A stretch of 64,000 nucleotides of DNA from a virus, in IMG/VR virus record IMGVR_UViG_3300009104_001827, positions 62,001-126,000 of that record; one strand, written 5' to 3'. The position numbers were made by a program, and so were the translations under genes. Below the pieces are notes generated by a model. That model was not told where the DNA came from. It saw only the letters and a program-made list of their open reading frames with translations, and did no database searches. Position 1 is the stretch's first letter. Every line of letters starts with the position of its first letter. Positions 25,454 to 63,833 of the stretch are shown in pieces.

Positions 25454-25477
25454 ATACCTTGTCAGGGTATAAGGTAT
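25454..25477 (+). promoter_or_regulatory. Hairpin covering the tape-measure start codon
   Basis: ATACCTT (25454-25460) pairs with AAGGTAT (25471-25477) around a 10-base loop that exposes AGGG (25464-25467), the likely Shine-Dalgarno 8 bases before ATG 25476. The first two bases of the ATG lie in the stem. This could limit initiation until an upstream ribosome opens it. The structure is read by eye; no energy was calculated. Confidence 0.4.
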
Positions 25478-28400
25478 GAGCATTAATGTAAACGTCCACG
25501 CTAACACGGATCCTTTGGTCAGGGATGTTCACGCTGCCGTAGACAGAATTAACAGGTCGGGAAGACTTAAGATTCGAATTGACGATAAGGGGGTTACTCA
25601 GCCGCTGGGTAACATGAAGCGCGGCGCCGACGAATTTACTAAATCCCTTGAGGCTTCTAATGCTCGTGTTCTTGCCTTCGGGGCTTCCGTGGGGGTTATT
25701 AATGCTGTTGCCGGAGCGTTCAAGGGATTGGTTCAAGCTACTATGGAGGTGGAGAAAAACCTAACCGATATTAATGTCGTTATGGGGCTGACCACTGGCC
25801 AACTTGATAAATTCGGCGGAGGGTTAATGAAGGTCGCCGCCGAAACGGGAGCCGGATTCAGGGCTGCGTCGGAAGCTGCCACGGAATTTGCGAGGCAGGG
25901 TCTTTCTGTTAACGAAACCCTCAAGCGAACAAAGGACGCCCTTATCCTAACGAGACTGACCGGGATGAAGGCTGCGGATTCAGTGAAATCTTTGACTGCC
26001 GCGATGAATACGTTTAAGGGGGAAATAGCAGACTCAACAGCCCTGGTAAGTAAATTCGCCGCCGTAGATGTTAAGTTCGCGGTTAGCGCGGAAGACTTCG
26101 CCCAAGCAATAGCGCGAGCAGGGCAATCCGCCAGGAGCGCAGGGGTTGATATCAATCAGCTTATCGGATTGGTGACGGCAGCTCAAGAAAGAACCGCTCG
26201 CGGTGGCGCAGTTATCGGTAACGCCTTTAAGACAATCTTTACTAGGGTCCGGCGTAGTTCTACGCTGGCAGAGCTGGAGAATCTTGGTATTGCCGTCCGT
26301 GATCTGCAAGGCAAAACTTTACCTGCCATGAAAATCATGCAGAGCCTGGCCAATACATACGACACCCTAACGGACGCTCAAAGAGCCTACATCTCACAAA
26401 ACGTCGCAGGCGTATTCCAGATCAACATTTTAAAAGCCGCCTTGGCAGACTTGGGAAAAACAAACAGCGTAACCGCCCAAGCCACTGCGATAGCTGCAGG
26501 CGCAACAGATGAATCTAACAGAAAGAATGAGCAACTCAGGCAAACCATGTCTGCTCTTGCAACTGAAACGGGAGTGGCCATCCAGGAGCTCGCAAAAAAA
26601 ATAGGAGATATCGCTCTTGCTCCAGGCATAAATAAGGTTTTAGATGGAATCAAAGGTATGGCCGAAGGGCTAGGCGGAATACTTGGCGACGGGGAACAGG
26701 AAGGAAATAAATTCGCTCAGGGTCTCTTGAGGGGCGTGGGCAACATCTTGACTGGTCCGGGTTTGGTGATGTTCGCTGCTGTCGCAGGAAAACTATTTGT
26801 TAATGCCGTTAAATATGCCCAGCAAAGCTTGGGCAGTCTTCTGAATATTAATAAAACCGCTAATGCAAGACGAAACATTGAGCAAAGCTTAATGCAGGTT
26901 CTTACTCAAAATGCAGGGCTACAAAAGGAAATGCTGCGGACAGACATAAGCCGAGAACAGAAGGAGCGAACTATTCTCCAGCTCATTCAGCAGCAAACCC
27001 AAGAGGCTAGCCGACTTGCGGCCCTGACTAAGAGCATGGCTCCCGTCATGATGCGACAAGGTATCGGACCCGGCCTGTCCATGAGGAGTGGGGGACGTGG
27101 CGCGTCAGGTTTTATCCCGAATTACGCAGCCGCAGATGATGAAAAGGCTGAGGCTAGAAAGGGCGGATATGCCCCCGGAGCAGTACGCACAATGAGGATG
27201 CCCGGCGTCGGGAGCGTTGTATATAACACCGCTGAAAGGGTTAAGAAATTTCCAGGGCTGACGCAGCCCGCAATTATGCCTCCAGGAGGTAAGGCGAAAG
27301 ATAATTATACAAAGGAATTCTATGGCACTCACGGTTTTGACCCATACATGGCGGGAGGAGGGTATGTTCCGAATTTTGCAAAAATTGGTACATCTCAGGC
27401 AATAGAAATGATAAGGGGCGGGCGCAACCCTCAGGGGTGGAAATACAGAAAAGATTTGCCCGACGACATAAAAACGCTCGCTCAATACAACATGAAATCA
27501 AGTGCAATCGCTATTCCTGCCACGCAATACCAGCGCGGGCAAGCGGGTCAAATGCGAGCAGCCAAAGACAAGAAGGGAATTAAGGAGTTTGACGCCAGCC
27601 GTTTATTTACATTGCTAGCATTAAAAGGCGGCGGAAAGGCACACGCCTCATTATACCCCGGAGGAAAGCTTAAGGAAATTTACGGTAGAGCCGCGAACGC
27701 CGACGGAGTTCTGCCTAAGATAAAATTCAGTATCTCGGGCTTCAAGCGCGCGAATATTCCTTCTGCAGAGGATTCAGAAAAAGACAATTTAGAAATAATT
27801 CAAGAAGATTTGCTCAAATCAACCGTGCCGTATGCGGTTAACTTTTCCAACAAACTAAACCTTGGGGACGCCGACCCGACCACCCCCAAGCTCATGGAGG
27901 CGGCGTTAAAAAAGGGTGGGAGCGGCGCTCTTGGCGCGCTATCCGGTTTAGTCGGAGCCATATTCGAGGCTTCCATATCTACAAGGCTTCCAGATTCAGA
28001 CCCCGACGGGGCTCCTGGAAAATTCAAACATGCCGGTGGCAGTATTTCGGAGGTCGGCGGTGACTTCGACGTAAGGGATATAAAGAGCAACAGCATTATA
28101 TCCACGCTTTTTGACCCAGGCCCAATAGCGGATATTGGAGACTATAAGACTCAGGCAAATGACGAAACTAAGAAAAGCATGGCCAACAAAATTGCAAAGG
28201 AAATGATCTACCGCAGGCACCCTGACTTCGTTGGGGAGAAAAACCGGGATGGCGGGATATATTTCGGTAGTGATGGCAAGCCCCTTTACGGAAAACCCGA
28301 AGCCGGCCAAGGTACAGCCGTAAGTGGAAAGCTTAAAGACCTGTCGTCAATTAAGGGGGCCGGCTTTGTTCCCAACTTTGCATCACTTGAAAAATATTTA

Positions 28401-31400
28401 GCTCACCGAGGTAGGTATGGGGGCCTTGATATTACGAGCATGTCCGATTTCAATAAAGCGTCTCCGTCGAAGCAGGGGGAACTTCGAGGTCTCGCCGGCT
28501 GGCATGAGCCCTCCGAATGGAGCGTTCAGAATGGGGAGTACGGACAATGGGGCCAACCTGACTCATTCGAGGATTATATGGCTGACGAAGCAATGGCCGC
28601 AGTAGACATTGCTGAACACGTCATAACCGGAGACGACGGAGAATCCTTTGAGGGAGGCATGAAGACTCGGAACGTAACCTTTCAACCCGGCGGCGGGCCA
28701 GCGCAAATGCGAAAACATATCAGGGCGATCAGGAGCGCTGCAAAGAGCGGCAAGCCTTACCAAATTTTAAACACCGGCACGGTCGTTGGGCATAGGGTAC
28801 CTAGTATAATGGTCAAGGCTAAAGCGTTAATTGACCGAATGAGACAAAGGGAGGACATTCCTATAATGAAAGTAATGGGCACTCTTAACCCTAATTATCT
28901 AGAACAAGATGTTGCGGATATGAAGGGATCTGTTCCCCTGGGCTTCTCGAAGTGGGGCCAGCTACCAAAGGGAAGCAAGGGTACTCATTTATATAGAAAA
29001 GGAGATACAAAAAAACTTAATTCAAGCTTAAAAAAACTAGGTATCAAAAGGGACTCGGGAGGATTCTATAAGGATAAGCCCGTACCGATGTCGTCACTAT
29101 TTCCCATGGGTTTCGCTGGGGGCTTTGTTCCCAACTTTGCCGACCCATTAAGTGATGCCGTCGGGAGAGAAATGAGCGCCGGCGTTCCTGTTTCTAAAAT
29201 TAGAGTTGGGTCACATAGAAAATTAGTCGGGAGCTCCAACCCTGCTGGGCTCGGCGTCACCAATACAGATGACGAACCCAACGGATTGCGTGATGTACTT
29301 GGTGCTACTGGAATTGTGCCGAATTACTCGAAGCTCAGCGGGGTGGTGGAGTTCGTGGATCCGCAGAAAAAAGTAGACCGGCTTGGTAAGGAAGCTGAGG
29401 AGGCAGCTGAGGAGGTGTCAAAGTATAAAGATGAGGTCACAGAGGCAGCGAAGGCAAAGGAGGAAGGCGCCGCCGAAGAAAAAAAACTCAAAAAGGAAGT
29501 TACAAGATTAAGAAGGGAAGAGAAGGCGTACGCTAACGAGGTCGGCAAAAAGAAAAAGGGGTCTACTAGGCATCTTGCCGCAGAGAAAAAACTAACCCAA
29601 GCGTTGGAAGCGGTGAAGAAGCAAAAGCAAACGAACGCCAACGCTACCAAGAAAAATACTGATGCAACGGATGCGTTAACCAAAGCAGAAAAGAAGTCCG
29701 CTCAAGCCACAAAGAAAATCCAGAAGGCTCAAGCCTCTCAACAACGGAGAGGAATGCTGGGGATGACCGCAATGATGGGAGCCCAAATGGCAGTTGGACA
29801 GATGCAGGGCATGGAAGGCTTCGAGACGAGTAAGTCCATGCAGGGTATCGCGGGAGGAGTGGGCATGGCCTCCACGGGAGCCTCGATGGGTATGATGTTC
29901 GGCCCTTGGGGTACGGCAGTAGGAGCGTTGGCCGGAGGAGTCTATGGGGTGCTTGACGGATTCAATAAGGCTGAAGAGGCCGCTAGGAAGCTTGCCAAAG
30001 CTCAAGTTGTCGCACGAGAAGCCGCCGAAGCTGCCGAATTCTCACGAAAGTCCGGACTTGCTGCGGGGTTGCTCTCCCAGGAAAACATATCCTCCCTTTC
30101 GGATCGGTGGAAAGGTTCGGACACCCTGGGCGGATCAACCGAGAGGAAGTTTACTGATCCCGTTGTGTTCACGGAAAAATATTTTAAGGCCTGGAATGCC
30201 TTGGCTCTGGAGGGGGACACTGAGCTTAAGGCTAGAAATCTTGGCAGAAAAGGCGATGCCGCCCAGAATTGGAAAGATACGCGTGGCCAACGTCTATACG
30301 ATGATCTTGGCATTAAGGATGGCGGGTTTACCCCAATCACCCGTATTGGTCCGAAGAGGGGCGATATCAAGGGCGACGGCACGTTCGAGAGCAGGAAGCG
30401 TTTAGCAGGCAGCGACCAAATGGTCGTAGAGTTTACGGGTAATGAAGAATTCACTGACGACTCGGCGCCAACAGATTATAAAGAAGAAATGGGAGTCACC
30501 TTTGCTCAATTTCGAGCAATGAAAATGCCGGGCGGAGCCATAGACAGAGCCCCGGAAGAGCAAAGAATTTGGCAACGAATGCAACAGGACTCTGGCGGCT
30601 TCAGCGCTACCCAAATGAAAGATGTGCTGGGTGCTGACTGGAGGGGAGGCCCCAATGCGAATAGGCTAAGTATGATTGCTAGCCTTGGTGGGTCGCGGGT
30701 CGGTGCCAACCCAATGCTCGCGGAGCAATTGCATAAAGGAGCCGAATCAGGCGGAGGGGCGGGGCTGCTATATGAAGCCGCAAAAGAAGCGCTCAAAGGG
30801 GAAGGACAAAATACGGAAGGTGCGGTCAGGAAAAAATATCAGGACGCATTGGTCTCATGGATAGAAGCTTCTGTAGACCCTAGTTCTGCGCCAAAGGAAT
30901 ACGACACAACTTCTTGGATTAAAAGCGGTAAAAAAGGCGGTAAGGGTCAGGAGATTTCCCAGTCGGAATACGATGCGCTAGATGCTAAGGAGAAAGCGGG
31001 CGATACTTGGTCGAAGGTTGGTGGAAAGAAAACTCTTGGTTTCGCGGAGCTTGTTGCCATGGCGGGATCAGATGACACGTCACTCTCTCAACTAATGGAG
31101 CTGGCAAACCAAATGGAAACTGCCTCTATGCAGGGGGGCGTTGCGAAAATGACCGGCGACAAGCAAAGTGCATTTATAGCAAGAAAACAAGACGCCCACC
31201 ATCGCGTGGATGTGAATGTGATGTCAAAAACACAAGCTCTTGCTGATGCCACCCGAAAATACACCCAAAGAGTGGATAAGACTCGGGCTATATGGGACGG
31301 GCTCACCAGTGAAACCTCTAAAGTCTGGCGTGATTACAATATGGGAATGCGAAAAGCGGGCGATAAACATACCACAACAATACTAAAAGCGGAGTCCGAC

Positions 31401-34400
31401 AGAAAGAAGGGGCTACTCTCTATCGCTCTAGAGGACAGGGGTGAGCAGCGCACCAACCTCATGGGGGCATTAGGTATTCAGTCTACCGGGGATACAGCTC
31501 TTGAGGATCAGGATCTTTTGCGCGCAATGGAGGCTCTTAGCGCTCAAGAACTGCACGAAATTTTAAATAAAATAATCACGAACGACTCGAAAAGAGTTGG
31601 AGTGATGAGAGATCTTGAGAATAAGCAAATACTAATAACGAAGGGCGCTCATAACTCCCTCGACGCGTCGGAGAAGCAGCTCGAGAATAGTAAAGAGATC
31701 AATCTTGTGCTCCAGACACGGCTTCAGTTAAAAACCAGAATGAAACGTTTCGACGAAAACACCGCCCTGAAGGAGGAGGTTGAATTATTGAAGCAGGCTG
31801 TCGCGCTCACCCAAAAAATGGGGGAAGGCAATATTGCGCTGGCACGCATGCAGGGGGGTACCGCCTCTCAGAGATATGGGGTCGGCCAAAAAAATAGAAA
31901 ACTCCAATACGAAAACTCAGTAGAGTCTAGTAAGGTTCGGCACGGCAAGGACCTGCTGAGCACTATAAAAAGCCAGCCCGAATTAAGGGGCATTGTGGAT
32001 AGCGATGTTGGCTTTGACATCAACGAATATCAAAAGCTTGAATCCTCCCAGGCTAAGGCCGACTACCTTATGGGCTTTAAGGATAAATTGAAAAAGAAAA
32101 TGATCCAAGATGAGGCTGACAGCTACGCTGCCGATCGGGCACCCCTCTCCGGAAAAGCGGCAAACCTTGAAGGGGCCCTGAAACTACTCCCGTACCATAC
32201 GGGCGGCCAAGTAACCATGCAAGCGGATCCTAGAACCGGCAAGGGTCTCGGCCAACTGGCGGGCACGCGCACCCCGGGGCTCCCGGGTATGGCGGGCGTT
32301 AACACTTTAATGGGGAGGGCAAGCTGGAAAGAGCAGATGTGGGAGGGCGGCCTTCCCGGGCAAGGTGGAAAAATAATAACCACAACACAAAAGGATGCCA
32401 TGGATAAAATAGCAAGAGACAGAAGAAGGGATTGGGATGACTCTGCTCAAGAATATACAGAAACTGTCGCTCCGGATGGCACCAAGGGGGCTCACCGAGG
32501 TGGGTGGACCTATAAGGGGAGAATGGCTCCGCCGGGGAAGTCGGGGCACCCCGATCGAGGCGACTTTAATATGTGGGAAAAGGGTTTCACTGACGAAGAG
32601 TCAAGGCTTTTTAAGGAGGCGAGAATTCTCCCCTCCAAACGTGGGGGGGATGTAGCTAAAATGGCGGCGTCCTACAAGGCGCAAGACCATGTTCTGGATA
32701 TAGACGCAACGAGAAAGAACTTGGAGAACGAGCGGAAGATAAACGCAGAAAAGCTTAAAAATTTAGACACCACGAATAAGCAGGTGGCGGCTCATAGTAA
32801 TGTAGATGAAGGACTGACGCAGGTCATCGAGAAATTAAGGCTCAAAGGCGATATGCACAAAGAGGTGTTGGCTAAAATGGAGGCCGAATATGAGATCGCT
32901 AAAAAACTAGCCGAAATAGAACACAAGGAAAAGCGCGGCGAGGGCGCCTTCGGTAGGGGAATGAATCGAGGGATGAACCAAATACAGGACAGGGTTGAAA
33001 CCTTTAGTCATACAATGGGAACGCAAATTCCGGAAATGTTTTCTAACGGCATGTCCAGCGCAATGATGAACGCCATCCGCAACGGAGGAAAACTTAAGGA
33101 CGTATTACGTGACGCAGCTCTAAGTTTCCTTGATACTTTTAATCAAAAAATGATGGGCCATTTCGCCGACCAAGCCACCATGGCCTTGTTTGGCTCCGGA
33201 GAACAGAGGACAAGAAAGGGGTACGCCAAAGGCGGCCTAGTAGGATTCAATGATGGCGGGCTCGCCATGGTTAGTAATCAGGAGTACCGCATGCGTCCGG
33301 AGGCCGTAAAAAAATACGGCGTCGGCATGATGGACGCCGTAAACTCAGGCCACTTCCAGCGTAGGGCTGGGGGAGGCCCAAGCTGGGCCGCAGGGCTAGG
33401 TGGTATAGCAGGTGGATTCTTGGCAAGCAAACTATTCGGCAAGAAGGAAGAAGAGAAGCATGTGGTCCGCGAAAAAGACCGCTTCGAAACTGATGGCGCA
33501 TGGAAACGCCAGAACATGTCTGCCCATTACATGCAAAATAATGAGCGCGTACAGACACACGTCGGCGAGCTGAGGATGAAAGATCAGGAGAACACTCAAA
33601 AATTTATAGAAAAAGCAGAAAAGAAAGCTCAAATGGGACGACAGTTATTCACTGCTGTCGCCAGTCTTGGGGCTCAAAAACTGGGAGCCAAGCTGGAGTC
33701 GAGCGGCGCATTCGGTAAGGCCGACATGGCGATGGGCTTTGGCAAGGATGTTAAAATGCCCGACGGGACGCTAGCTAAGGTATCTCCTGATGGAAGCATG
33801 TTTAAGATGGGGAGTGATGCGGGGGCAAGGCTTGCGGCGGAATCGAAATTGCAAGGCCCCTCGCTGCCCGGACAAAACATACTAGGCTTCGAGCAGAGCT
33901 CCGGATTTTTAGGCGGAAAAAAGGATCACGGGTACATGCATCGATCTGGCCTTGAGAAATACGCGGGATTGCAGGACTCCATAATCGGACCAAAGATGCA
34001 AGACTGGCAACATGATGATGGCAGCTTTAACTTTTCAAGCAGAGAAAAGCGAGGCAGACTCTCAACATGGGCTAATTCTCCCTGGAAAAAAGGCAGCGTT
34101 GGCGAAAAGGCGACGGAGGCCACAAAAAAACTCAAGGAGTTCATAAAGGATACGGGTAGAAAAATAAACCCCCTTAGGAAAGCAACCGGCGGCAAGATCG
34201 TAGGGCAATCCGGCATCGACCAAATTCCCACCATGCTTTCAGAGGGCGAGTACGTAATAAGGGCCGACGCCGCAAGAAAAATGGGCGTGCCCGCCTTGGA
34301 TAAAATTAACGCCGGCAGATTCAACAAGGGAGGCATCGTTACCAATGCCAGCAGTGACCCCGGCGGAAGCTTGGGTGGCGCAAGCACAAACAATGTCTCT

Positions 34401-34574
34401 ATAACCGTCAACGTCGATAAGTCCGGCGGCGAATCCAGCGGTGGTGACGACGAGAAGTCTGGAGATGGCGGAGAAGATAAAATGGATAAGTTCTCCTCAA
34501 GAATCAAGGATCAAGTCATCACTGTAATTAAGGAGGAGAGCCGACCTGGAGGGCTGTTAGACGACGGCGCGTAA
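25476..34574 (+). CDS. Tape measure protein with embedded extra domains (3032 aa)
   Basis: Sets tail length and is ejected into the host with the DNA. Residues about 30-330 match the TP901-type tape measure core ('GASVGVINAVAGAFKGL', 'ATEFARQGLSVNETL', 'GGAVIGNAFKTIFTRV'). Five related motifs G-[FYI]-[VI]-P-N-[FY]-[AS] occur at residues 545, 629, 963, 1216 and 1279. Between the second and third lies a PD-(D/E)XK-like pattern: E831, D865, then D889-Y-K891. About 1291-1425 is a Lys/Glu-rich coiled coil, and 1426-1492 is a Gly/Met/Ala-rich hydrophobic segment of likely membrane-inserting type. The end (about 2920-2950, 'LSEGEYVIRADAARKMGV') is the usual tape-measure C-terminal motif, with a looser copy near 2605. 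At 3032 residues the tail would be extremely long if the whole protein acted as ruler. Confidence 0.92.
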   Translation: MSINVNVHANTDPLVRDVHAAVDRINRSGRLKIRIDDKGVTQPLGNMKRGADEFTKSLEASNARVLAFGASVGVINAVAGAFKGLVQATMEVEKNLTDINVVMGLTTGQLDKFGGGLMKVAAETGAGFRAASEAATEFARQGLSVNETLKRTKDALILTRLTGMKAADSVKSLTAAMNTFKGEIADSTALVSKFAAVDVKFAVSAEDFAQAIARAGQSARSAGVDINQLIGLVTAAQERTARGGAVIGNAFKTIFTRVRRSSTLAELENLGIAVRDLQGKTLPAMKIMQSLANTYDTLTDAQRAYISQNVAGVFQINILKAALADLGKTNSVTAQATAIAAGATDESNRKNEQLRQTMSALATETGVAIQELAKKIGDIALAPGINKVLDGIKGMAEGLGGILGDGEQEGNKFAQGLLRGVGNILTGPGLVMFAAVAGKLFVNAVKYAQQSLGSLLNINKTANARRNIEQSLMQVLTQNAGLQKEMLRTDISREQKERTILQLIQQQTQEASRLAALTKSMAPVMMRQGIGPGLSMRSGGRGASGFIPNYAAADDEKAEARKGGYAPGAVRTMRMPGVGSVVYNTAERVKKFPGLTQPAIMPPGGKAKDNYTKEFYGTHGFDPYMAGGGYVPNFAKIGTSQAIEMIRGGRNPQGWKYRKDLPDDIKTLAQYNMKSSAIAIPATQYQRGQAGQMRAAKDKKGIKEFDASRLFTLLALKGGGKAHASLYPGGKLKEIYGRAANADGVLPKIKFSISGFKRANIPSAEDSEKDNLEIIQEDLLKSTVPYAVNFSNKLNLGDADPTTPKLMEAALKKGGSGALGALSGLVGAIFEASISTRLPDSDPDGAPGKFKHAGGSISEVGGDFDVRDIKSNSIISTLFDPGPIADIGDYKTQANDETKKSMANKIAKEMIYRRHPDFVGEKNRDGGIYFGSDGKPLYGKPEAGQGTAVSGKLKDLSSIKGAGFVPNFASLEKYLAHRGRYGGLDITSMSDFNKASPSKQGELRGLAGWHEPSEWSVQNGEYGQWGQPDSFEDYMADEAMAAVDIAEHVITGDDGESFEGGMKTRNVTFQPGGGPAQMRKHIRAIRSAAKSGKPYQILNTGTVVGHRVPSIMVKAKALIDRMRQREDIPIMKVMGTLNPNYLEQDVADMKGSVPLGFSKWGQLPKGSKGTHLYRKGDTKKLNSSLKKLGIKRDSGGFYKDKPVPMSSLFPMGFAGGFVPNFADPLSDAVGREMSAGVPVSKIRVGSHRKLVGSSNPAGLGVTNTDDEPNGLRDVLGATGIVPNYSKLSGVVEFVDPQKKVDRLGKEAEEAAEEVSKYKDEVTEAAKAKEEGAAEEKKLKKEVTRLRREEKAYANEVGKKKKGSTRHLAAEKKLTQALEAVKKQKQTNANATKKNTDATDALTKAEKKSAQATKKIQKAQASQQRRGMLGMTAMMGAQMAVGQMQGMEGFETSKSMQGIAGGVGMASTGASMGMMFGPWGTAVGALAGGVYGVLDGFNKAEEAARKLAKAQVVAREAAEAAEFSRKSGLAAGLLSQENISSLSDRWKGSDTLGGSTERKFTDPVVFTEKYFKAWNALALEGDTELKARNLGRKGDAAQNWKDTRGQRLYDDLGIKDGGFTPITRIGPKRGDIKGDGTFESRKRLAGSDQMVVEFTGNEEFTDDSAPTDYKEEMGVTFAQFRAMKMPGGAIDRAPEEQRIWQRMQQDSGGFSATQMKDVLGADWRGGPNANRLSMIASLGGSRVGANPMLAEQLHKGAESGGGAGLLYEAAKEALKGEGQNTEGAVRKKYQDALVSWIEASVDPSSAPKEYDTTSWIKSGKKGGKGQEISQSEYDALDAKEKAGDTWSKVGGKKTLGFAELVAMAGSDDTSLSQLMELANQMETASMQGGVAKMTGDKQSAFIARKQDAHHRVDVNVMSKTQALADATRKYTQRVDKTRAIWDGLTSETSKVWRDYNMGMRKAGDKHTTTILKAESDRKKGLLSIALEDRGEQRTNLMGALGIQSTGDTALEDQDLLRAMEALSAQELHEILNKIITNDSKRVGVMRDLENKQILITKGAHNSLDASEKQLENSKEINLVLQTRLQLKTRMKRFDENTALKEEVELLKQAVALTQKMGEGNIALARMQGGTASQRYGVGQKNRKLQYENSVESSKVRHGKDLLSTIKSQPELRGIVDSDVGFDINEYQKLESSQAKADYLMGFKDKLKKKMIQDEADSYAADRAPLSGKAANLEGALKLLPYHTGGQVTMQADPRTGKGLGQLAGTRTPGLPGMAGVNTLMGRASWKEQMWEGGLPGQGGKIITTTQKDAMDKIARDRRRDWDDSAQEYTETVAPDGTKGAHRGGWTYKGRMAPPGKSGHPDRGDFNMWEKGFTDEESRLFKEARILPSKRGGDVAKMAASYKAQDHVLDIDATRKNLENERKINAEKLKNLDTTNKQVAAHSNVDEGLTQVIEKLRLKGDMHKEVLAKMEAEYEIAKKLAEIEHKEKRGEGAFGRGMNRGMNQIQDRVETFSHTMGTQIPEMFSNGMSSAMMNAIRNGGKLKDVLRDAALSFLDTFNQKMMGHFADQATMALFGSGEQRTRKGYAKGGLVGFNDGGLAMVSNQEYRMRPEAVKKYGVGMMDAVNSGHFQRRAGGGPSWAAGLGGIAGGFLASKLFGKKEEEKHVVREKDRFETDGAWKRQNMSAHYMQNNERVQTHVGELRMKDQENTQKFIEKAEKKAQMGRQLFTAVASLGAQKLGAKLESSGAFGKADMAMGFGKDVKMPDGTLAKVSPDGSMFKMGSDAGARLAAESKLQGPSLPGQNILGFEQSSGFLGGKKDHGYMHRSGLEKYAGLQDSIIGPKMQDWQHDDGSFNFSSREKRGRLSTWANSPWKKGSVGEKATEATKKLKEFIKDTGRKINPLRKATGGKIVGQSGIDQIPTMLSEGEYVIRADAARKMGVPALDKINAGRFNKGGIVTNASSDPGGSLGGASTNNVSITVNVDKSGGESSGGDDEKSGDGGEDKMDKFSSRIKDQVITVIKEESRPGGLLDDGA

Positions 34575-47067: not shown

Positions 47068-50000
47068 ATGCCAGCAACAAGTATACTCCTCAAATTTAAG
47101 GTTCACAGCCTAACCGACACCTACCACGCCGTCGGGACTTCTGCGCAGGGGTCTTTTAATAAGGAGCTCGGCCGAGGTAGGGATTTGATTGTCGGCGGCG
47201 GAGTCGTAACTGAGGATGATCTAAAGCTTGGGGTTGGAATTGAAACGCAAATCTCTCTAGACGGTAAGTATGGGGAATTCACTATTCGAGTTTACGCCGA
47301 AAATGAATTGGGCCTTAGGTCGAAATATGTTGAGGTTGTAAAGCAGGTTCTAGGTCCGTCCGTGGACGGAACGTATTCCTTTGGGGACGTTCATGTTGCT
47401 GCGGGGGAGGTTGTTAGTAGGGAGTTTGTGGGATCCGACACTTATGATATCGGTAATACCACTAAGGTGAATTTAGATTTTAGGGGCGCGTCCCCCAATC
47501 TTAACTGGAGTCTTTTGGCTCCCCCGGGCCACGCCCTGGAGGGGAATCAATTGGATTCATCGATGGTTAAGGAAGATGGATTCTTTGACAAGTTTGTCAT
47601 ATCATTCTGGCGCCCAAACGGCTCTGGCAACTACGATATTTTGGATAGTGATGATGAGGCCAAGATGATTGATGATATCTTTGGGGATATTTTGGAGGAT
47701 ATGGGGTCTGGTAAATGGCAGTCCCAAACATTTTTCCTTAACTTCCCTGAATCCAGCTCGACTAACTTCTCTGGGCTGGCGGGTGGAAGCAACAAAAGAA
47801 AACTGTTAATTAAAATTGAAGCCCATGCAATTAAGTTTAATGCAAATGATCAAGATAAAATATCCCACCTGGAGGTAACTCTTGAGAATAGTAAAACCAA
47901 ATTAAAAACAAATTTTGTTGAGACTGTTGCTAATGATTTTATATTTTCATATGAAGCACAAGATATTGATCTCTCTCGGGTTGAGGTATTGCAGTATAGG
48001 CAAACGGGCCTCAGTACTTTTGGATTAGTTAAAACGTTTGGGGGTCCAAGTGATAGTGGGGTAAGCAAGGTCCAGCTGGGGACGATTAAAGCCCAGCAAA
48101 AATGGTCTAATGGAAGGGGTGACAGTGGCAATGACATTACTTCTTTGGTTAATGTCTACAAATATGTTATTGCCGTTTACGACTCGTTTGGCTTGTCCTC
48201 GGCTTACGCCCCTAAGGTCGATGGAGGTTTTGAAGAGAAGGATAGTATAGCCGACGCGCTGGACGCTTCGAATAGAACTTTTGAGTCTGTGGTTAAAATA
48301 GGTAATGTAACCATCGCCGACGTCGCTGATAAGTTTAATATTTCATGGAGCCTGGTGGACGCAAGAGGTAATGGTATAAGTTTCGACAACGATTCGAATT
48401 CAGATTTTGCTTCTGTTGTGAGCGGGGTGGTGGGGTATTTCCATCGGGCAGGCGACTCCCAGGGAGCTCACCCGATAATTGATGCATTTAAAGTTAATGA
48501 TGCCGGCGACAGGTTTGCAAGCACGCCTGCGTCTCTTAACATATCTGAATTAAAGCAAGAATATGGTGTCACGCTAATCCCTAATATATCCAAAGACGAA
48601 AACAAACGAATCCAAGAAAAATTGTACGACGATAGCACTCGAGAGGCTTCTCGGTCAATATATTTCACCCTAAAACTTCTGGACTCTCGTGGGGAGGTTA
48701 TAGATGAGCTTGAAGTCTCAGGTACTAATGAGCAACCTACAATTGAGTTGCCTGCTGGGGGCTTAAAAATTCACAATACAAGCCCGGTGGGGTCCATAAG
48801 CTTTGATTTTGAATTCAGCGAAAATATCGAATCCGTTAAAATTTATAGGAAACCAAGAAAGGTTGCTACCGTGACCACTGCGGCTCCCCAGGCTAATGAG
48901 GTTAGGTACGCCCAGCGGAGCCATGCCCGCTCCACTGAGGATTCTCCTTTTGGGTTGGTCCCTAATACACCGATGGCTTCAAAGTACAATGATGCAACCA
49001 CTCCCTCTTCTTATTTTGGATACTACATCCCTCCAGCCGGGAGCGCAGCTGACAGGCTTGCTGCAGCCACAACTTATGCGGAAGAAGTGATAGCTTACGA
49101 TGGGGGGCAGGGGTATTTTGTATCCGAGCAAAAGCTTTCCGGGCCGAACCCTACTGAAACGGATCCAGGAACAAGTAGTGCGACCATTGTTGATAAAGAC
49201 GTTCCCATGGCCCAAGTGTATGGAGACGGATGGGTAACTGATGTAGTTACTCTTTATGATTACGTTATCGTTCCTTATGATACATTTGGCGCAGGGGTTC
49301 CACATCTAATTAGGGGACAGGAAGTTATTGCATATCTTGTTACTACAAAAGATGATAAGGGTTTCGTTGGACAAATGGATATAATCCGGCCCCCCGCGCC
49401 GGAGAATTTTAAAATTAAGTCGTCTTTCAAGACGTTCTTCCTTAGTTGGGATGCTCCTCGTCAGAAAAAAGGGAAGATTGACTCCTATAAGGTCACCATG
49501 ATTAGGGATTCGAGACCCCTGAAGGATAGGAATGCTACCTCTATTCAACTTGGTAACGGCAATCTTAACTACGAGGGGACTGACAACACGGTGAATCGTC
49601 CATTTATTAAATGGGTGCCTCGCGCTGCAGGCGGCGATTACGCCGTTCGTGATAACGGGAGCTGGGCGGCAGTCTCCTCGGCAAGTGGGGAAATTAGTAA
49701 GGTGGGTTTAGTTGAAAACGAAACAGACTCTTGGTTGGTGAGGACTAGGGCTGCAGAGGATGGCACTTTTACTGAGAAAGAGGGGAGCTTGAAAATCGTC
49801 GGAGGGCAAATGCATATGAGCAAGGCTGGCGGTGATAATAAGTTTTTGGATGCTAATGGTAACCCCATGGTTACCTTTGAGGAATATATAGTCGACACCA
49901 CTAGCCTGGCAATTGAGGGAGAAAAGAATGAAACCGGGTATTTCTTTCTTGAGGCTATAGATAGAGTTGGGAACCATAGCGAGTTTTCTCATAATGGCGC

Positions 50001-53000
50001 TCCCGAAAATTTCGAACAATCTAGAACCCTGGGGCAGTCTGAGATAACTGATATATTTGGGTTTGAGCAAGAGATCACGAAAAAATTCCCAGGAGCGATA
50101 GTCCTTGTTCCGTCTGAGCCGTTCGATGTTGTGAACGAAGGAATAGAATGGGAGGAACATATATTGTATTCCAATGGGGAGGGAACGCTAATGAAGGCGG
50201 GAGCAATAAAAATGCGACCCGCAGCTGACGAATCTGGATATGAATTTTTGGGGCCAGAGGTAGAGATTGATGTAGAACTAATGGTCGACGGAGGGGTCTA
50301 CGAAATTAAGACTCCGGGCGACACGGACTTCACTTTGCTTGGGGCTCCTAACAGCACCGAAGGAACTATATTTGTCGCCACTGGCCCAGGAACGGGAAGC
50401 GGCAAGGTTAAGATAGATAAATATATCCAAAGTATTTATTGGGATCCAGCTGGTGGGTACGATACTGTCTCTGGGACTTTTAAGTCTACAACGAACGATG
50501 GAGGAAAGGCGAATGAAAGGCTCGGGGGCCCGCTTGAGGGCGTAGACGAGAATGTAGAATATGAGAAAACTGGGTACTATTCTTTCTCCGTATTTAATCC
50601 TGCAAGCGCAACTTATAATATAAAGGACGGAATCGATACTAGTGACGCGACCGGCTATAATGCCGTTATAAGATCGCCTGCTGCGGGAAATTATGGATTT
50701 CAAGATTTCATCGAGGTCGCTACTAGTTTGAATGGCAGGCCGACCCAGCAAACCATAGACATTACCGCATTCACATCTCATTGGGGCACAACTATATCCG
50801 ATGCTAAGGATGATCTTGTTAAGTATAACAGTAATAATGGCGAGGTTTCTGCCTCGTCTAAGGTCGTGGACATGATAAAAGCAGGTTACGGGATACATAT
50901 GCCTCTGGAGTCCCGGGGAGAGGGCGAACCTAAATCTATTGGAAAAAGAAATCCACTGGTCAAGCCTAGAGAGAAAAACGTTGTGGGGTCTGTGGTTGTT
51001 GGACGAATAAACCTCAAGCCCGACTTTGGGTTTTCGGTGACCTCAAGCTGGCACGCATTTGCCAATGCGGTAATTGGTACCGCCATGATAGGAGACGCAA
51101 CGATTAAAACCGCGCACGTAAACGACCTATCCGCCGACGTATTAACTTCGGGGGAAATCCACGGACATGAAATAATACTAGGGGAAAGAAAGGCTATTGG
51201 TGAGCCTGTCCAGTTTGGGTCTATTAGTAGCTTGGATTATCTTCCTGGAGGAATAAATTCTACCGGAACGGGCTTCGCTATCCACGGTGACGGAACTTTT
51301 TCATTTTCGTCTGGGGCGGGTGGAGACCCTCTTAACCCTAAGAAGGCCACCTCTCTTAGCTTTGATGGTGAGGGGCTTAATCTGAGAGGGTACCTTAATC
51401 AGCCGGATGGTACTCCGGGCAGCAGTATAAGGTTGTACGGTACTGCAGACCAAGTGTTAATACAAGACTTTCAGGTTCCGAACGTGGACGGCACTGCAGG
51501 AATCCTGTCTCCAGACGGAGGCGATATTACGGTCTACGGAACTATCAAGGGAGCATTTGACGCCAGGGGGCTAGCGCTAGGAGCGGAAAATGTTGTCGTA
51601 AAGGTATACCCTGAAGACCTAGCCGACAGCAAGCAGATCACACGCAAGGCCTCATACGCCGAATTTTCCGATCCGGGCCAAGGGCCAGATGTGGGCCACG
51701 CTTGGTGGTGGGCCAGTTCCGATCCAGTCGCGACAGTTAACGACGGAAATAATCTTGTTGCGTGGACGGCTGCGAGCTATTCTGAGGGAGACAAGCGCGG
51801 GCACCTTGGTCAGGCGTGGGAGGCCAATAGCAACACGAATGCTGGAGACGAGCCGGGGGCTAGCCCTAAATGGGATAATATTGGAGAGCTCAATGATGGG
51901 ATTAAGATAGAATTGGATTTCGGTGTCAACTCGGGGGATGATCCCCAGGGGATTGGTCTATCGAATAAATTTCTCAAAAGGGAACATGGCGAGATCCCTG
52001 CATTGGCTGATTATTTTTCTGTAGAGGTTAGGCTTAAATATGTTAATCTCCCCAGCACCTCTTCTGGAGGCATACAATGGGCTGCCACTAAGAGCTATAG
52101 GTCCGGAGACTACGTTATAAATGATGGAAATATTTATCAGGCTAAGCGGTCTATCCCCTCAGGGGATCATGTACCCACCGGGACAAGCGATATTTCGATT
52201 GACGGAAAACCTGTATGGTCATACATCGGCGACGGCCAGGATGGGCTGACAATTGATTCTGATATTTTTATAATCAAGCAGCTGCGCGAGGCCTCTGACG
52301 CTTTAAGTTTTCAATTACGACCCAATGAGGGCACAGTGGTTAAAGGTGACTCCGCAGGTTATTTGGACTTTACTCCATGGTTGATTTATGGATCCACCTC
52401 CTCCTATGACCTGACCAATCCTCAAGACGACAATCCTGTGTGGGTTCAAGATGTCGCCAAGAACATTAGGATCCTCAGGGAGGTCGTGGTTAAGAGGGAG
52501 CCTGACGGTTCTATAAGTGATTACGATGAGTGGAGCGCAAGCGAGGGGTACGATCCCGGTGACGTGGTTAAATCTAATGATAGGATATTCACCTGTTACG
52601 ACACCCATCCCGCAACCGCCACCAACCCAGCAAATAACAGCGCGTACTGGCAAGAGGAAACTTTAACTAAAATATCGAAGTCCCCCATGACTTCGTCTGA
52701 CGAAAAAATAACCTGGGAAAGTTTCAAACTAGGCGATGGTGTTCAGGTGGAGGGGAATCGTGTCTACAGGGATTCGTTTGGTATAGATGGGAGCGTAAAG
52801 TTTCAAAACATACTGTTCACCATGGAGCAGCACGCCACCATGGCTCATGTTGACGCCACCCCTAATATTCTCGACACCCTAAAGTTCACCTTGCTCCAGG
52901 ACGGCAATAGCGCCGGAGAGTTGAGTTTTTATGCGGCCGACGTGAACGGGGACCGTACCTCAGACCCTAAATACGCAATCACTAGAGAACTCAGCTCTGG

Positions 53001-56000
53001 CCTGAGGAAAAAGATGGACATCTCAGAAAAAACTTATTTCACCTGTAATTTTATTCAGGGGGCGGATTTATTGCCGGGCCCCTCGGGTTATCTATATATA
53101 GAAGCTGACGCAGGTGACCCTATTGTGGAGGGGAAAATTTTTGTAAAAAAGGATAACGGCGACGCTTTCGCTGGTGGCTTGGTGGAGATCTCTGTCGATG
53201 ACGCAACCGATGTCAGCCGCATTACTTTAAGGGTAAAATTACTAAACCCCGGCGGGGGAGTCATTGCCGTGGGGACGGAGCAAATAGATATCATAAGCAT
53301 AAAGCCGGAGCATAAGGCGTTCAGGCTTACCCTGAAGAGAGACTTTGTGGAATTCGATGGAAGTAGTCATGCCGTTAGTGATAATTTATTGTCCGTCACA
53401 AACATGGTTCCCCTTCAAGTCTTCTTGGGCGCGGAAAATGTGGTTTCTAAGTTTAATTTAAACGATGGGATTGAGGTTGTTCCTAGCTTTGGGTGGGTGG
53501 CTAGCGGAGAGGCGTTGGACAACGCCTTAAAAGACAACGCCGGCAATACTGGAAGGATTATGCCGCCAAATACATATGGAGACTCCACTACTGGACTGCG
53601 GGGCGCAATTGCCGCCGGAAGTCTAGCGGACGCTGTGCCCGCCGGGGACTTGACGTTCGATCCTTATTATATCTATAAGGATGGTAGCGATTATAAATTT
53701 AACATAATAAAAGACTCTGCCGGTAGTCTGGAGGCGGTTGAGTTGTCGTCCACAACGAGTAATTTCTTTTTCTATATCCCCGATAGCGCTAGTGGTGAAG
53801 AGGCGGTAAAGAAAAGACACGGACTATCTCTTAAGGCGACCTATAATAGGCACGCCGGAGGCCTCGATGGAATACCCGAAACCTACGAAGATATTGAGGA
53901 AGTAAAAGTAATCGAAAACGTTGCCGATGGAGTTAATCCGTTTTGGGTTACTAGTAAAAATCAAAACATGATAGTCTCCGCCACTGATACGGGTAAAATG
54001 TCTATCCCCGGAACGTCGGACGGCGAGGCCGAGGTTAATGTTTATAGAGGGAATAAGGAGGTGTTCCTCGCACCCAAAAAGATTAAAATCGGCAGCAACG
54101 TATTCACCCTCAATGCTGGAAGCGCGGCTTTTGAGTATACCGGGGGAGGGGTCGCTATTAACGCGGAAGTTGATACTGTCGAGCTTGAGTGGGAGGACGG
54201 CATCAAGGGTGCGGGCGACGAAAACTTCAAGAAAATAAAAAACGGGACTCCAACCATGGTGAGAGTCTCTAGGGGCGGCGACAGCTTCCCAAGGAACACT
54301 GACAACCAAAAGCGCCATGTAGTGATACTGGATAATGGGGGAGATGTACTGCAATTTGGAGACTTCTCTGTGCAAAACACGGGTATTATGGACGGGTCCA
54401 AATTTTCTCAAACCGATTTCATAGCCTGGCCGTCGGGCGCTGCCGATATAGCGACAAGACCTACGAACCTTAGCTCCTCATCGTATAACTCTTTAGAGAT
54501 TGAAAGCGGAAAATCTGTCACTGGCGTTAATGAATACCGGCTCGCGTCTAACTTTGCCCTTGCGGATGGTGAGCAATTGCTTACGGCTACCGGAGGCAAG
54601 CTTGATATCGCAGGCATAATTACGACTGTATATATTTACGACAATAAACTAGGCATCCGCGCCGAAACCAGCTTTGAGCGGAGCGTGGGGCTGGCCAAGA
54701 CTGGAGCTCCGGGCCCATCTTTTGCTTATAGGGGGGAGTATAGTCCGTTTAGATACTATAGGGGAGACGATCAGAGGATTGATGTAGTTAAATATACCGA
54801 CCCCACGGGAGTCTTGCCCGTTAAACATTATAAGGCCATCTCCGCCAGCGGGCCAGCGGGTACAGTGGGCAACACCACATTCCCCGGCGCGAAAGCCCCT
54901 CCAAACTCAACCTACTGGGACAACTTTAACGAACTTCAGAGCACTGCCACAGATTTATTACTAGCCTCTGACGTTTTTGTAAAAAGAGGCATCGTTACCG
55001 GAATAGACCGGGAGGTCGGCACTCAGCAACAGCCGTCGTTTATCGCTAGTCAATTAGAGAGCAGATATTATAATCTAAGCTCCTCTTTTGACCCACATGC
55101 AATGGGAGGAATTCAGAAGGGGATTGACTTTACAAACAATGGAACGCCGATATCCAATACTCATCCTTCGCTGGAAAGTTATTTGGCTGACAACTTCAGT
55201 GGCAGCACTACCTTTGCTGGGCCTGACGCTCAGGGCCGTATATGGTACCTCGATCAAACGGATTGGGATTATTATATAAAGGAAACCGGAATCAATCCGC
55301 CTGCCGGAACAAATAATATAGACGCATGGGCCCGCGCTCAATTCCTCGCTGGCAACGGAGACAAAACTTATATTCGAATCAGGGAAAGCGTTCCTGACAG
55401 CGCCACAGATGGCACCAGATCGATTCGATCCAGGCGTTCACAGAAAACATATAAAACCCCCAACGATAAGCTTCCTGGGTTTTTCCTTGGGTTCGATAGG
55501 ATAGATACTGCTGTTACTAATTCATCTGCTAGTGGTGGTGCCGATTGGGCCGCAGATGATTTTTATGTTCCGAAGTTCGAGCTAAGAAGCGTATTTGGAA
55601 ATTACTTATATTGGGATGGGAATAACTTAAATATAAAAGGCGCTATCATTAATGCGTCTGCTGATGATAGTAATTTTTTAAGATTGGCTGCTGCGGACGA
55701 CGTATTAATTTTGAGCGGACCTCAGAACCCCGACACTGGGGGGCAAACATTTGTTGGCGGCGGTTTTAATAACGAATTAACTCCGAGGTTAGACAACCTG
55801 GGCTCATCTATTATGGGTGGGGGCGCCAATAAGATTAGCATAAACGAAACCGCACAAAAACCAAGGTTCTCCGTCATCGGCGGTGGCTACGGAAACGAAA
55901 TACATAATCCGTTCTCGTTTATTGGGGGTGGATATTTAAATAAGATCGGGGGCTTTGTTCCTAAGGGAGAGACTGCAGCGGAGCTAAAGTCTGAGGACGG

Positions 56001-58500: not shown

Positions 58501-59296
58501 CCACCTTTAGGAGGGCTCTTGCTTCTGCTGCGGGTACATCGTCCCAGCTAGACCAATTTGAGGCTGCTTCGTTCTTGTACTTGTCATCTCTCCACCACTC
58601 TCTCAGGACCTCCTTGAAGTCAAGGAAGCTATGGCAATTGAGTTTATTTTGAGCGTTGGTTTCTAAAATGGAGGAGGGGGTTAGCGCGGGAGAAGTCTGC
58701 GCCATGGGTTTCCCTTTGCTCTTATTAATTTCGTCGTCCCCGACGATGTGGACATTTAGGAAATTTCTGATGCACCTTACGAACGCTCGATTGCAGGCGA
58801 TTGTTTCGAGGAAAATTTGTCCAAAATCGCTGGTATTGTTGATTGTGGCGTTTGCCATGTCTTGGAATCTTACATGTTCCCCGCCGGTTTCGTAATTTGG
58901 TATAAATGTTATTGTGCAGGTGACTGCGACGTGCTCTTCGCTACATTTTTCCGTATGAAATGAGACGTCTGAGAATCCTCTTAGTCTAGCTAGTTCTTTA
59001 ATTCCGCTAAGCTTAATTAGAAGTTGATGATCTTGGAGGCCCTCTACTGTGCTAGGCATGGCTTGATTTCTTGTTTTAAACCAGTCCCTGTTGGGAAATA
59101 GATGACTGTCTCCTATCATTGCTCTCCAGTCGATAGATCCATCCTCATGAAAAACGTATTGAACGTTCTTGAGCAATCCATGCGAGTCCCTCTGGAACAG
59201 TGACGGTCCGAAGCTATTATCGATAGCTGAGTCGGTTATTGTGGTCGAACCTTCCGTGGTTGTTTCTGAATTAGTTGTTTTCTTTTTTCTTGGCAT
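58490..59296 (-). CDS. Possible ssDNA-annealing (Rad52/ERF-like) recombination protein (268 aa)
   Basis: A Lys/Thr/Ser-rich N-terminus is followed at about 55-190 by a domain with 'IDWRAMIGD', 'LIKLSGIKELARLRGF', 'VAVTCTITFIPNYET', then 'ETIACNRAFVRCIRNFL' and 'VGDDEI'. The last pattern (E-T-x-A-x-NRAF-x-R-x-x-RN-x-L...DE) recalls the helix ending of single-strand annealing proteins such as ERF and Rad52-like phage proteins. The C-terminus is Trp-rich ('REWWRDD', 'SNWSSWDDV'). The family is not certain, and it could be another DNA-metabolism protein. The start overlaps the GT9-like gene by 26 bases, and the stop overlaps the convergent 3810-aa fibre. Confidence 0.4.
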   Translation of the reverse strand: MPRKKKTTNSETTTEGSTTITDSAIDNSFGPSLFQRDSHGLLKNVQYVFHEDGSIDWRAMIGDSHLFPNRDWFKTRNQAMPSTVEGLQDHQLLIKLSGIKELARLRGFSDVSFHTEKCSEEHVAVTCTITFIPNYETGGEHVRFQDMANATINNTSDFGQIFLETIACNRAFVRCIRNFLNVHIVGDDEINKSKGKPMAQTSPALTPSSILETNAQNKLNCHSFLDFKEVLREWWRDDKYKNEAASNWSSWDDVPAAEARALLKVVNA

Positions 59297-60455
59297 AATT
59301 ATATATTTTGAAAAACTCTGACTCTCTATAAAACTCTGGGTCGTCTATTATTTTATGCTCGCTTTGCTTTTCTGTCTGCCTGTCGAGTGCCGCCTTGCAT
59401 GGATAAATTTTATCTTTAGAGAATAGGTTTAATGATGATTGATAAAAGCTATTATTGCATATTTTGTCGGGAAAGTCAAGGTCTTTTTTCGTTTCCGGTT
59501 CATTGGGGTATATGTTTTCCCCAAAAAATTTAATGCGGGCCTCAGTTATTGTTTCTTTATTGTTGTGATACAGTATGGTCTTTATTGCTAACCTATCAAT
59601 GTCGGACATATAATCTTGAGTAAAGGTTTCGTCCATATAGAGAAATATTTTTTGAATATTATCCTTATATTTAAATAATAAATTCAAATCTATCATTCTG
59701 TTTATATGTACTACTGTTTTATGTGATGATAGCCAGCCTTCTAGGTACTGCTCTTCGTCTGTATAGTCGGACCTGATGTTAATTGATGATCCTTTTGCGA
59801 ATGGTAGTTTGTCGTGGCTAGCAAAGTCGGGAACTACGTCTATTATTGATAAGTAGAAACTTTCCCCTAAATGAATAGGATTAATTAAATTTAGCTCATT
59901 GGGTATATTTAGGAGGTTGAGCGCCTTCTCTGCCACTTTGTCGGGGAATATTTTATTGATTCTTTTTGGGCTTTCTTCTAGCGAATAAGAAGGCTTTAGG
60001 GATGAGAAGTCTGGAGCAAGAAGCTCCTGCTTGGTTTTGTCTCCCCAGTACGGCCCGCAACATTCTGGCCTGGACGGACCATAAAGGATAACCATGGGAA
60101 CGTCGTATGCTCCCGCAGCATGACACGAGAAAGAGTCGTTTCCGATATGAAGGCTGGAGTTTTTAATAACAAAAAGCGCCTGACGTATTGTTGTTTGTCC
60201 TAGTAGGCTAGTGCTTCCGTCGATATGGGCTTCGCCTTGTTCTCCGATTTGGATAATCTCATATCCGAGATTTTTTATTTTTGGTTGAATGATTTTAATT
60301 ACATCTTTATAATAGTCATAATTTTTTGACCCCATTCCTGAGGAGGCGTGCAGGGTAATATATTTTCTACTTCCAACCGGAAAGTAGGAAGTCTTGATCG
60401 TTGGCTTGGCTATCTTTGAGGCAGCGGCAAGCGCATAATTTTCTACTAGATGCAT
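59271..60455 (-). CDS. GT9-type glycosyltransferase, C-terminal half of a split domain (394 aa)
   Basis: Starts 'MHLVENYALAAASKIAKP' at ATG 60455, which overlaps the end of the GT4 gene by 10 bases in another frame. Residues about 30-150 are the C-terminal Rossmann half of glycosyltransferase family 9 (heptosyltransferase-like): 'KYITLHASSG', 'LFVIKNSSLHIGNDSFSCHA' and 'PMVILYGPSRPECCGPYWG', where the nucleotide-sugar binds. The N-terminal half of this fold is missing here and lies at the end of the upstream gene. The remaining ~240 residues have no clear match. No Shine-Dalgarno precedes the ATG, so a fused product by frameshift is as likely as separate initiation. Substrate unknown; a surface glycan is a natural guess. 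Confidence 0.7.
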   Translation of the reverse strand: MHLVENYALAAASKIAKPTIKTSYFPVGSRKYITLHASSGMGSKNYDYYKDVIKIIQPKIKNLGYEIIQIGEQGEAHIDGSTSLLGQTTIRQALFVIKNSSLHIGNDSFSCHAAGAYDVPMVILYGPSRPECCGPYWGDKTKQELLAPDFSSLKPSYSLEESPKRINKIFPDKVAEKALNLLNIPNELNLINPIHLGESFYLSIIDVVPDFASHDKLPFAKGSSINIRSDYTDEEQYLEGWLSSHKTVVHINRMIDLNLLFKYKDNIQKIFLYMDETFTQDYMSDIDRLAIKTILYHNNKETITEARIKFFGENIYPNEPETKKDLDFPDKICNNSFYQSSLNLFSKDKIYPCKAALDRQTEKQSEHKIIDDPEFYRESEFFKIYNYAKKKENN

Positions 60456-62383: not shown

Positions 62384-62920
62384 TTAAAACGGGGCTTTAT
62401 CTTCGCTCCGCGCCTCAGTCTTCTCTTCCGCATGTTTCTTAGATTTGTTTTTTGAGGCCGTAAATAATTCATTAAGGTATCGCTTAAAAAGGCATTTGAG
62501 CGTCTCCACTTCGCCGGGCTCCAGGGGGAGTCTAAAAACTTGGTTGCCGTTTCTGGTTAAAACTATCCCGAAGGCGGGAACGGTTAATGATCCGTCTTTA
62601 GTTTTTACTTGCTTGTCCCACGGGGTTAATTTAATGGAGGTAGAATTTTCTTCGAAGGTGTGGTAGGTGCTGTACTCGTATCTACCATTAAATGCTGATA
62701 TAATACCTCCTATTTCCCACTCATTGAATTTAATGTTTATGTTCTTGTTTGTGTCGCCCCTGTTGTTTGAAAAATTGGCTGTTTTCGTCTTGTCGTCCCA
62801 GCTGAATTGTTGTATCGCGCTAACGTAAAGAGCGGGAAGCCCTTTGCTCCCCGGCCCTACGCTAAAATTGAATGCGCAACCCGTATTTTTGCTATTCGGC
62901 TTGTATAGGCTGAGGTTCAT
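62384..62920 (-). CDS. Unknown protein, possible nucleic-acid-binding (178 aa)
   Basis: ATG 62920 lies inside the end of the protease gene (29-base overlap). The protein starts 'MNLSLYKPNSKNTGCAFNFS' and has a beta-rich body ('NINIKFNEWEIGGIISAFNG', 'TSIKLTPWD', 'FGIVLTRNGNQVFRLPLEPG') followed by a helix and a Lys/Glu tail. Basic, beta-sheet-then-helix proteins of this size in phages are sometimes ssDNA-binding (PC4 or Whirly-like), but I see no diagnostic residue, so no function is assigned. Its TAA overlaps the ATG of the GT4 gene, which suggests coupled translation. Confidence 0.6.
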   Translation of the reverse strand: MNLSLYKPNSKNTGCAFNFSVGPGSKGLPALYVSAIQQFSWDDKTKTANFSNNRGDTNKNINIKFNEWEIGGIISAFNGRYEYSTYHTFEENSTSIKLTPWDKQVKTKDGSLTVPAFGIVLTRNGNQVFRLPLEPGEVETLKCLFKRYLNELFTASKNKSKKHAEEKTEARSEDKAPF

Positions 62921-63833
62921 CTTCTTGAAGTGCTACGTTTTTAATGAGGAAGGGGAATTCTTTTTCAAATAAAGATTTTCCTTTACCTCCTTTTTTTACT
63001 TTAAGTCCGGAAGACTCTACTGGTAAATTTTCTATCTCTTCAAACGTGGGCATTTTTGCCTTGGGGTCTAGGGCCCAAAGTAAGGCGTTTTCGTCTGCCC
63101 ATTTCTTCATTCTGCGAATTGGAACAATTAAATTAAAATTCTCTCCAGCTCCTCTTACTAGCATTCCTACATAGGTTCCGCTTTGTAGATATACTCCACC
63201 CCCGCTAGAGCCCGGAAAAGCTGTAACCGTCGTCTGGTCGAACTCGACCTTGCCCTCAACCCTTCCTACTTGAGAGACGATTCCCGTAGTCATGCTGTTT
63301 GCTCCCATTTGACCCAAGAGGGATCCTACGTGAAACAATTGAGTTCCGATCGGGACGATAGCTTCATCTTCATTAAGGTAGAACTTAGCCCCTGCCTTGC
63401 CGTAATTTTTAGCCCGAACCATAAGGAGCGCCAAGTCGTGCCCGTGCTCGTAGTCGCTATACTTAATAACTTTCGCGTCCATTTTCATTTCCCCCACCCT
63501 TCTTCCGTCCTCTACTAATTCCTTGACGATTTGGGCGTCATTGAATTCAATAACCTTCACTGAAGATCCGGACTCGTCAACAACCGTCCTAATGTTTCTA
63601 AGGATATCTACTACGTGCGCAGCGGTCCATACGAAAGTTACGCTTTCTCCTTCTATTTGCCTTGTTATTAAAACTCCGGAGCCTTCCGATTTTCTATAGT
63701 CTCCTTCTGCTTTAATTGTTACGGATATATCCTGCAGGTGTTGCGCTGTTTCTTTTTTATTTACGGCTTTATCTTCCCCTGAAAGGGGAAGGGCTAGCCC
63801 TATGGTTAGTAATGCTAGTGATAGTTTATTCAT
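62892..63833 (-). CDS. Secreted trypsin-like serine protease (313 aa)
   Basis: A signal peptide is clear: 'MNKLSLALLTIGLALPLSG', then a polar mature N-terminus. The catalytic triad is readable: His73 ('WTAAHVVD'), Asp133 ('GHDLALLMV') and Ser210 ('FPGSSGGGVY'), in the order and context of S1/DegP-type trypsin-fold proteases. No PDZ domain follows. About 85 residues after the protease core are charged and unrecognised. A periplasmic or exported protease is unusual in a phage structural region. It could act on the envelope, on host defence proteins, or be a host-derived gene. The -10 box is 6 bases from the ATG, so the message may be leaderless. Confidence 0.85.
   Translation of the reverse strand: MNKLSLALLTIGLALPLSGEDKAVNKKETAQHLQDISVTIKAEGDYRKSEGSGVLITRQIEGESVTFVWTAAHVVDILRNIRTVVDESGSSVKVIEFNDAQIVKELVEDGRRVGEMKMDAKVIKYSDYEHGHDLALLMVRAKNYGKAGAKFYLNEDEAIVPIGTQLFHVGSLLGQMGANSMTTGIVSQVGRVEGKVEFDQTTVTAFPGSSGGGVYLQSGTYVGMLVRGAGENFNLIVPIRRMKKWADENALLWALDPKAKMPTFEEIENLPVESSGLKVKKGGKGKSLFEKEFPFLIKNVALQEDEPQPIQAE

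Follow-up and report, generated by a model that had tools for sequence, protein, structure and literature searches.

This study concerns a long open reading frame (ORF) in a stretch of viral DNA of 64,000 nucleotides (positions 62,001 to 126,000 of the IMG/VR virus record IMGVR_UViG_3300009104_001827, a record of 211,117 bases); this whole stretch is referred to as the window, and positions are given within it. The ORF (25476..34574, + strand) encodes 3032 amino acids and has the features of a phage tape measure, being long, lying in a tail gene cluster, and carrying a tape-measure domain. Residues 122–311 (25839..26408, +) matched PhageMin_Tail in Pfam (E 1.5e-24), several PHROG tape-measure families matched the ORF, and a minor tail protein is encoded downstream. 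Tape measures are usually viewed as coils that set the length of the tail; the protein sits in the tail tube and exits at DNA ejection. Here, we describe segments within this protein of a giant phage that are delimited by a seven-residue motif, are exchanged between related phages, and include a candidate nuclease.

A motif scan showed that G[FYI][VI]PN[FY][AS] is present exactly five times in the tape measure, at residues 545, 629, 963, 1216, and 1279, confirming all copies noticed in a first-pass annotation of this DNA. The copies, all on the + strand, are GFIPNYA (motif 1, residues 545–551, 27108..27128), GYVPNFA (motif 2, residues 629–635, 27360..27380), GFVPNFA (motif 3, residues 963–969, 28362..28382), GFVPNFA again (motif 4, residues 1216–1222, 29121..29141), and GIVPNYS (motif 5, residues 1279–1285, 29310..29330). 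No further copy of even a looser form of the motif was present in any of the window's six frames, and the motif did not arise once when the tape measure protein was shuffled 2000 times. The motif logo read A-[AS]-x-G-[FY]-[IV]-P-N-[FY]-A.

The N-terminus of the tape measure was used to search IMG/VR, and 41 loci with 63–100% identity were obtained, one of which was 100% identical to the window. Every one of these relatives contained four or five motifs; a further locus, L046, which came from a search with the cassette, contained six. In the left-complete relative ORFs, motif 1 lies at approximately residue 544–552, a position shared with the window, and motif 2 follows 80–84 residues on; a variable stretch comes after motif 2, and the last motif pair is 63–65 residues apart. 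The order in close relatives is a conserved entry module, at least one variable cassette, and a conserved exit module. In the window, the entry module spans residues 552–628 (27129..27359, +) and the exit module spans residues 1223–1278 (29142..29309, +), with 85% mean column identity, motifs included, across 33 relatives. The first-pass annotation had counted the first (545–628) and last (1216–1278) intervals as possible cargo, which we rejected, as both are conserved modules in close relatives. The profile of the entry module also matched several distant exit modules, so the two modules look distantly related, and the cassettes may be flanked by copies of one duplicated module.

The variable stretch was then compared between close relatives. 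For 820 pairs, identity in the N-terminus and identity in the nuclease slot were weakly correlated (r = 0.25), and phages with N-termini 95–100% identical had nuclease slots that were 21–58% identical. L023 and L039, for example, share an N-terminus of 100.0% identity and a slot of 32.5% identity, and L010 and L041 share 84.8% and 100%, respectively. At the DNA level, L023 and L039 were identical at 150/150 positions before the entry motif and at 17/69 after it; on the exit side, 17/60 positions were identical ahead of the next motif and 127/129 beyond it. DNA identity was also averaged for the 37 pairs that combined an N-terminal identity of 95% or more with a slot identity of 60% or less. 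The mean was approximately 0.9 up to the entry motif, 0.82–0.85 within it, and 0.30–0.37 from its last codon on, and it was back at approximately 0.9 inside the exit motif. Because DNA identity drops at the entry motif and is regained at the exit motif, the motif was identified as the seam of exchange, motif 2 being the entry seam and motif 4 the exit seam in the window. The proposal that the motif is a domain boundary was thus borne out, since identity between relatives changes exactly there. As judged from the sequences compared, the tape-measure ORFs that contain the cassettes are intact, and the motif is the joint where one cassette yields to another.

Cassette 1 (residues 636–962, 27381..28361, +) is the segment in which a nuclease had been suspected. 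A profile search over all inter-motif segments gave an 86-member cassette-1 family of very high divergence; the segment profiles were made with the motif ends trimmed, and a hidden Markov model that kept these ends matched nearly everything. PD-(D/E)XK nucleases are described by motifs I–IV (PMC1913061), and the corresponding set of E, D, (D/E)xK, and K/Q was found across the 86 members. The motif I column, E831 (27966..27968), held E in 82/86 and D in 4/86, and the motif II column, D865 (28068..28070), held D in 85/86 and E in 1/86. In motif III, D889-x-K891 (28140..28148), the D889 column held D in 48/86 and E in 38/86, and the K891 column held K in 85/86. These residues were found where the first-pass annotation had placed them, and a motif IV residue, K905 (28188..28190; K in 78/86, Q in 8/86), was added; all four sites are on the + strand. 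The family also has a G in 86/86 and an additional F in 81/86, with spacings of 18–34 (E to D), 19–37 (D to [D/E]), and mostly 14 (K to [K/Q]). In 33 homologues of cassette 1 with a mean column identity of 21%, the only invariant residues outside the motif were G827, E831, D865, K891, and K905, indicating that the placement of E831, D865, and K891 is not due to chance. Read from the alignment, the conserved columns of the family correspond to E, D, (D/E)xK, and K/Q as in a divalent-metal PD-(D/E)XK-type nuclease. When the cassettes were compared among themselves by hhalign, seven other segment clusters outranked the rest (probabilities 98 to 6% versus <3%), and several of these show the same FE / D / xK pattern. 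We hold with good confidence that cassette 1 is a candidate nuclease of the PD-(D/E)XK type. L173, L174, L199, and L210 carry two different nuclease-family members in adjacent slots.

Other cassettes occupy the same slots. Cassette 2 of the window (residues 970–1215, 28383..29120, +) has phmmer relatives in cassettes of L154 (1.5e-16) and L205 (1.5e-6); in the search of close relatives, its sole match was a 100% identical 41-kb contig. The inter-motif segments, with entry and exit modules counted in, fell into 103 clusters, of which 62 were singletons, and these approximately 100 clusters are nearly all unannotated. A GNAT acetyltransferase domain was found by Pfam in 4/4 members of one cluster (best 7e-8), and a P-loop nucleoside triphosphatase (NTPase) cluster had AAA_30 in 8 members (best 5e-4). 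SNase matches were weak (0.014–0.018, below the Pfam cut-off), and an NCBIfam scan of 48 cassette representatives returned scattered weak matches only. Reading the sequences by eye gave leads to putative kinase-like clusters (GxGxxG, DLHxxN) and to putative ADP-ribosyltransferase (ART)-like, HAD-like (DWDGT), zincin-like (HExxH), and further nuclease-like clusters. Consistent with the first-pass annotation, the relatives' tape measures carry unlike segment clusters in the same slots, with families predicted to be GNAT acetyltransferases and P-loop NTPases among those that fill them.

The distribution of the motif was examined at the DNA level. When one codon version of the motif was used in an independent scan, at least 120 DNA stretches matched, most of them within long ORFs carrying two to eight motifs, and a second codon version returned further stretches. 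Among the matches listed, all 118 uncultured-phage ORFs with motif 1 at residues 500–700 had an N-terminus homologous to that of the window tape measure, and PhageMin_Tail was present in 3/3 distant motif ORFs checked in Pfam. A motif-DNA scan of genomes gave 70 stretches, with multi-motif ORFs only in L240/L254 and L242; the remaining stretches look like chance. The L240/L254 contigs were binned with a Halobacteriovorax metagenome-assembled genome (MAG) and L242 with a Flavobacteriales MAG, which are weak hints to the hosts. In tblastn searches against 50,697 phage records (INPHARED), 0 matches were obtained with the cassette region, with the exit module, or with the cassette of a relative together with its exit module, and the N-terminus of the tape measure alone gave low-identity matches in 225 of these records.

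The explanation that we consider probable is that the tape measure holds exchangeable, motif-delimited effector cassettes between two conserved modules, and that these are injected into the host. Each cassette would be an enzyme-like domain that starts and ends with [AS]-x-G-[FY]-[IV]-P-N-[FY]-A. The tape measure would fill the tail tube and exit ahead of or with the DNA, and the cassettes would reach the host envelope or cytoplasm at infection and act early. The nuclease cassette may attack nucleic acid, whether of the host chromosome, of plasmids, or of rival phages, and the other cassette enzymes may modify host targets, as phage polyvalent proteins would. Related phages would swap cassettes by recombination, perhaps in response to resistance evolving in hosts or rivals, and the motif would be the protein-level seam of the swapping. 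A protease may also cut at the motif, or the domains may simply be linked or docked there. On balance, we also lean toward the broader proposal that in widespread uncultured phages the tape measure is a carrier of exchangeable effectors, with slots set by a 21-nt, 7-residue motif, in-frame and codon-precise swaps of nuclease, acetyltransferase, P-loop, and other cassettes, and delivery together with the genome.

Several results weigh against this explanation. A folded nuclease of the size of cassette 1 would need to pass through or unfold in the narrow tail tube, and most of the other cassette identities lie below Pfam cut-offs and were read by eye. Cassette 1 itself gave no useful match against Pfam, PHROG, or PDB sequences, and hhalign of its profile against six Mrr-like nucleases found nothing significant, so that Pfam, PDB sequences, and hhalign all failed to reveal profile similarity to a known PD-(D/E)XK family. 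An AlphaFold2 model of the window cassette, built from 33 sequences, reached a predicted local distance difference test (pLDDT) score of 68, and its Foldseek matches were meaningless. A compact relative from L005 (L005:7899-8465, model mf0dda9a34eba) was folded with 69 sequences instead, giving a pLDDT of 87 and a predicted template modeling (pTM) score of 0.82. In this model, motifs I and IV each lie in a helix and motif III lies in a strand, with these elements in order, and a two-residue strand adjoins motif II; Foldseek searches of it against PDB and BFVD returned nothing significant and no PD-(D/E)XK structure. The suspected nuclease thus stands as far as its residues are concerned, E / D / [D/E]xK being near-invariant in 86 members, but not as a recognized fold, for which neither Foldseek nor hhalign gave a PD-(D/E)XK match. 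The PD-(D/E)XK fold of cassette 1 is a prediction from its residue pattern.

The lack of a nuclease fold in Foldseek, together with the position of the region inside a virion structural protein, would also fit segments that are structural or host-contact domains, for example for membrane-pore or inner-membrane receptor contacts, which diversify with the host and in which E, D, and K are structural. We consider this unlikely. The best conserved columns are acidic residues and lysine, in the order of a nuclease active site and with its D/E interchange, and the GNAT and P-loop domains of the same slots are cofactor-using enzymes. Such enzymes need cytosolic cofactors, and a role limited to structure or to the periplasm is disfavored on that account. 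Somewhat less probable still is that the cassettes are cut at the motif by a phage protease during virion assembly and act in the producer cell or are packaged separately. The motif stands at every boundary, and the window also has a gene for a trypsin-like protease (62892–63833, − strand), but a link between this protease and cutting of the tape measure has no support, and late expression with the tail genes would set the nuclease beside phage DNA in the producer cell.

The precise exchange of a nuclease-like domain that lies exactly between conserved flanks recalls a mobile nuclease element, which would cleave alleles of the tape-measure gene at the motif DNA or close to it and be copied in by a homing-like process, the benefit being its own transmission. 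An empty allele, in which the entry module is directly joined to the exit module, was found neither alone nor beside occupied alleles among the architectures listed, and slots without a cassette-1-type nuclease hold other families. The homing-type explanation is disfavored because of these two observations. In addition, the nucleases of close relatives are very different, whereas homing would tend to spread one, and we regard this explanation as very improbable.

Further genes were noted in the window and in a relative. The trypsin-like serine protease at 62892–63833 (−) matched Pfam Trypsin_2 (E 2.4e-12) and a PHROG protease and is a possible processor of virion proteins. A protein of 3810 amino acids (47068–58500, +) is probably a tail fiber; it contains CBM_5_12, a module of the chitin-binding type, and has a Peptidase_S74 chaperone at its C-terminus. 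Two glycosyltransferase genes (59271–62338, −) adjoin the tail-fiber gene. A related tape measure (L063:4623-13244, +) has a Phage_lysozyme domain at residues 1921–2045, downstream of its cassettes (E 9e-19).

The injected, exchangeable effector cassettes proposed here were compared with known systems. In bacterial polymorphic toxins, a conserved carrier bears effector domains that are rapidly swapped at a fixed junction; the cassettes described here differ in being internal rather than C-terminal and in being borne by a part of the virion. For phage and plasmid polyvalent proteins, entry into the host together with the DNA has been predicted (Iyer et al. 2017, PMC5512222), and for the cassettes we infer such entry from their tape-measure carrier. 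As in those proteins, one long phage polypeptide holds several unlike domains of enzymes of the conflict type, here GNAT by Pfam and ART-, kinase-, and zincin-like domains by eye; several unlike candidate effector domains per polypeptide were found in the relatives, with two cassettes in the window. Unlike in polyvalent proteins, the carrier is a tail tape measure, which PMC5512222 does not mention (0 occurrences of the word "tape"), and a short motif marks the limits of the domains and the place of their exchange. Tme of the Streptomyces davawensis contractile injection system, a tapemeasure-related endonuclease effector that is loaded into a tail-like particle (PMC11126660), is likewise a tape-measure relative with an endonuclease domain. 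However, Tme bears a single EndA-like domain with a DRGH motif at its C-terminus, whereas the domains described here are internal, number several per protein, include another nuclease type, and occur in phages. With the PD-(D/E)XK superfamily (PMC1913061), cassette 1 shares the motif I E in a helix, the motif II D, the motif III (D/E)xK in a strand, and the motif IV K/Q in the next helix; it differs in that no similarity to a known family was detected and that the modeled fold lacks a significant PDB match.

Titles and abstracts on toxin, effector, ADP-ribosyltransferase, or hypervariable tape measures, a body of literature that leaves preprints and most subscription papers outside, contained no account of motif-delimited tape-measure cassettes. 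If the proposal is true, phages would possess their own equivalent of polymorphic toxins within the ruler of tail length. If exchangeable enzymes are part of tape measures, functions that serve many phages in early takeover would be hidden in a structural gene, and the motif, which turned up approximately 100 segment clusters, would be a simple handle for finding such enzymes. The question of how a ruler in a narrow tube fits hundreds of enzyme residues, and of whether the domains reach the host, is thereby made testable. Among known systems, the polyvalent protein is the nearest concept and Tme the nearest experimental precedent.

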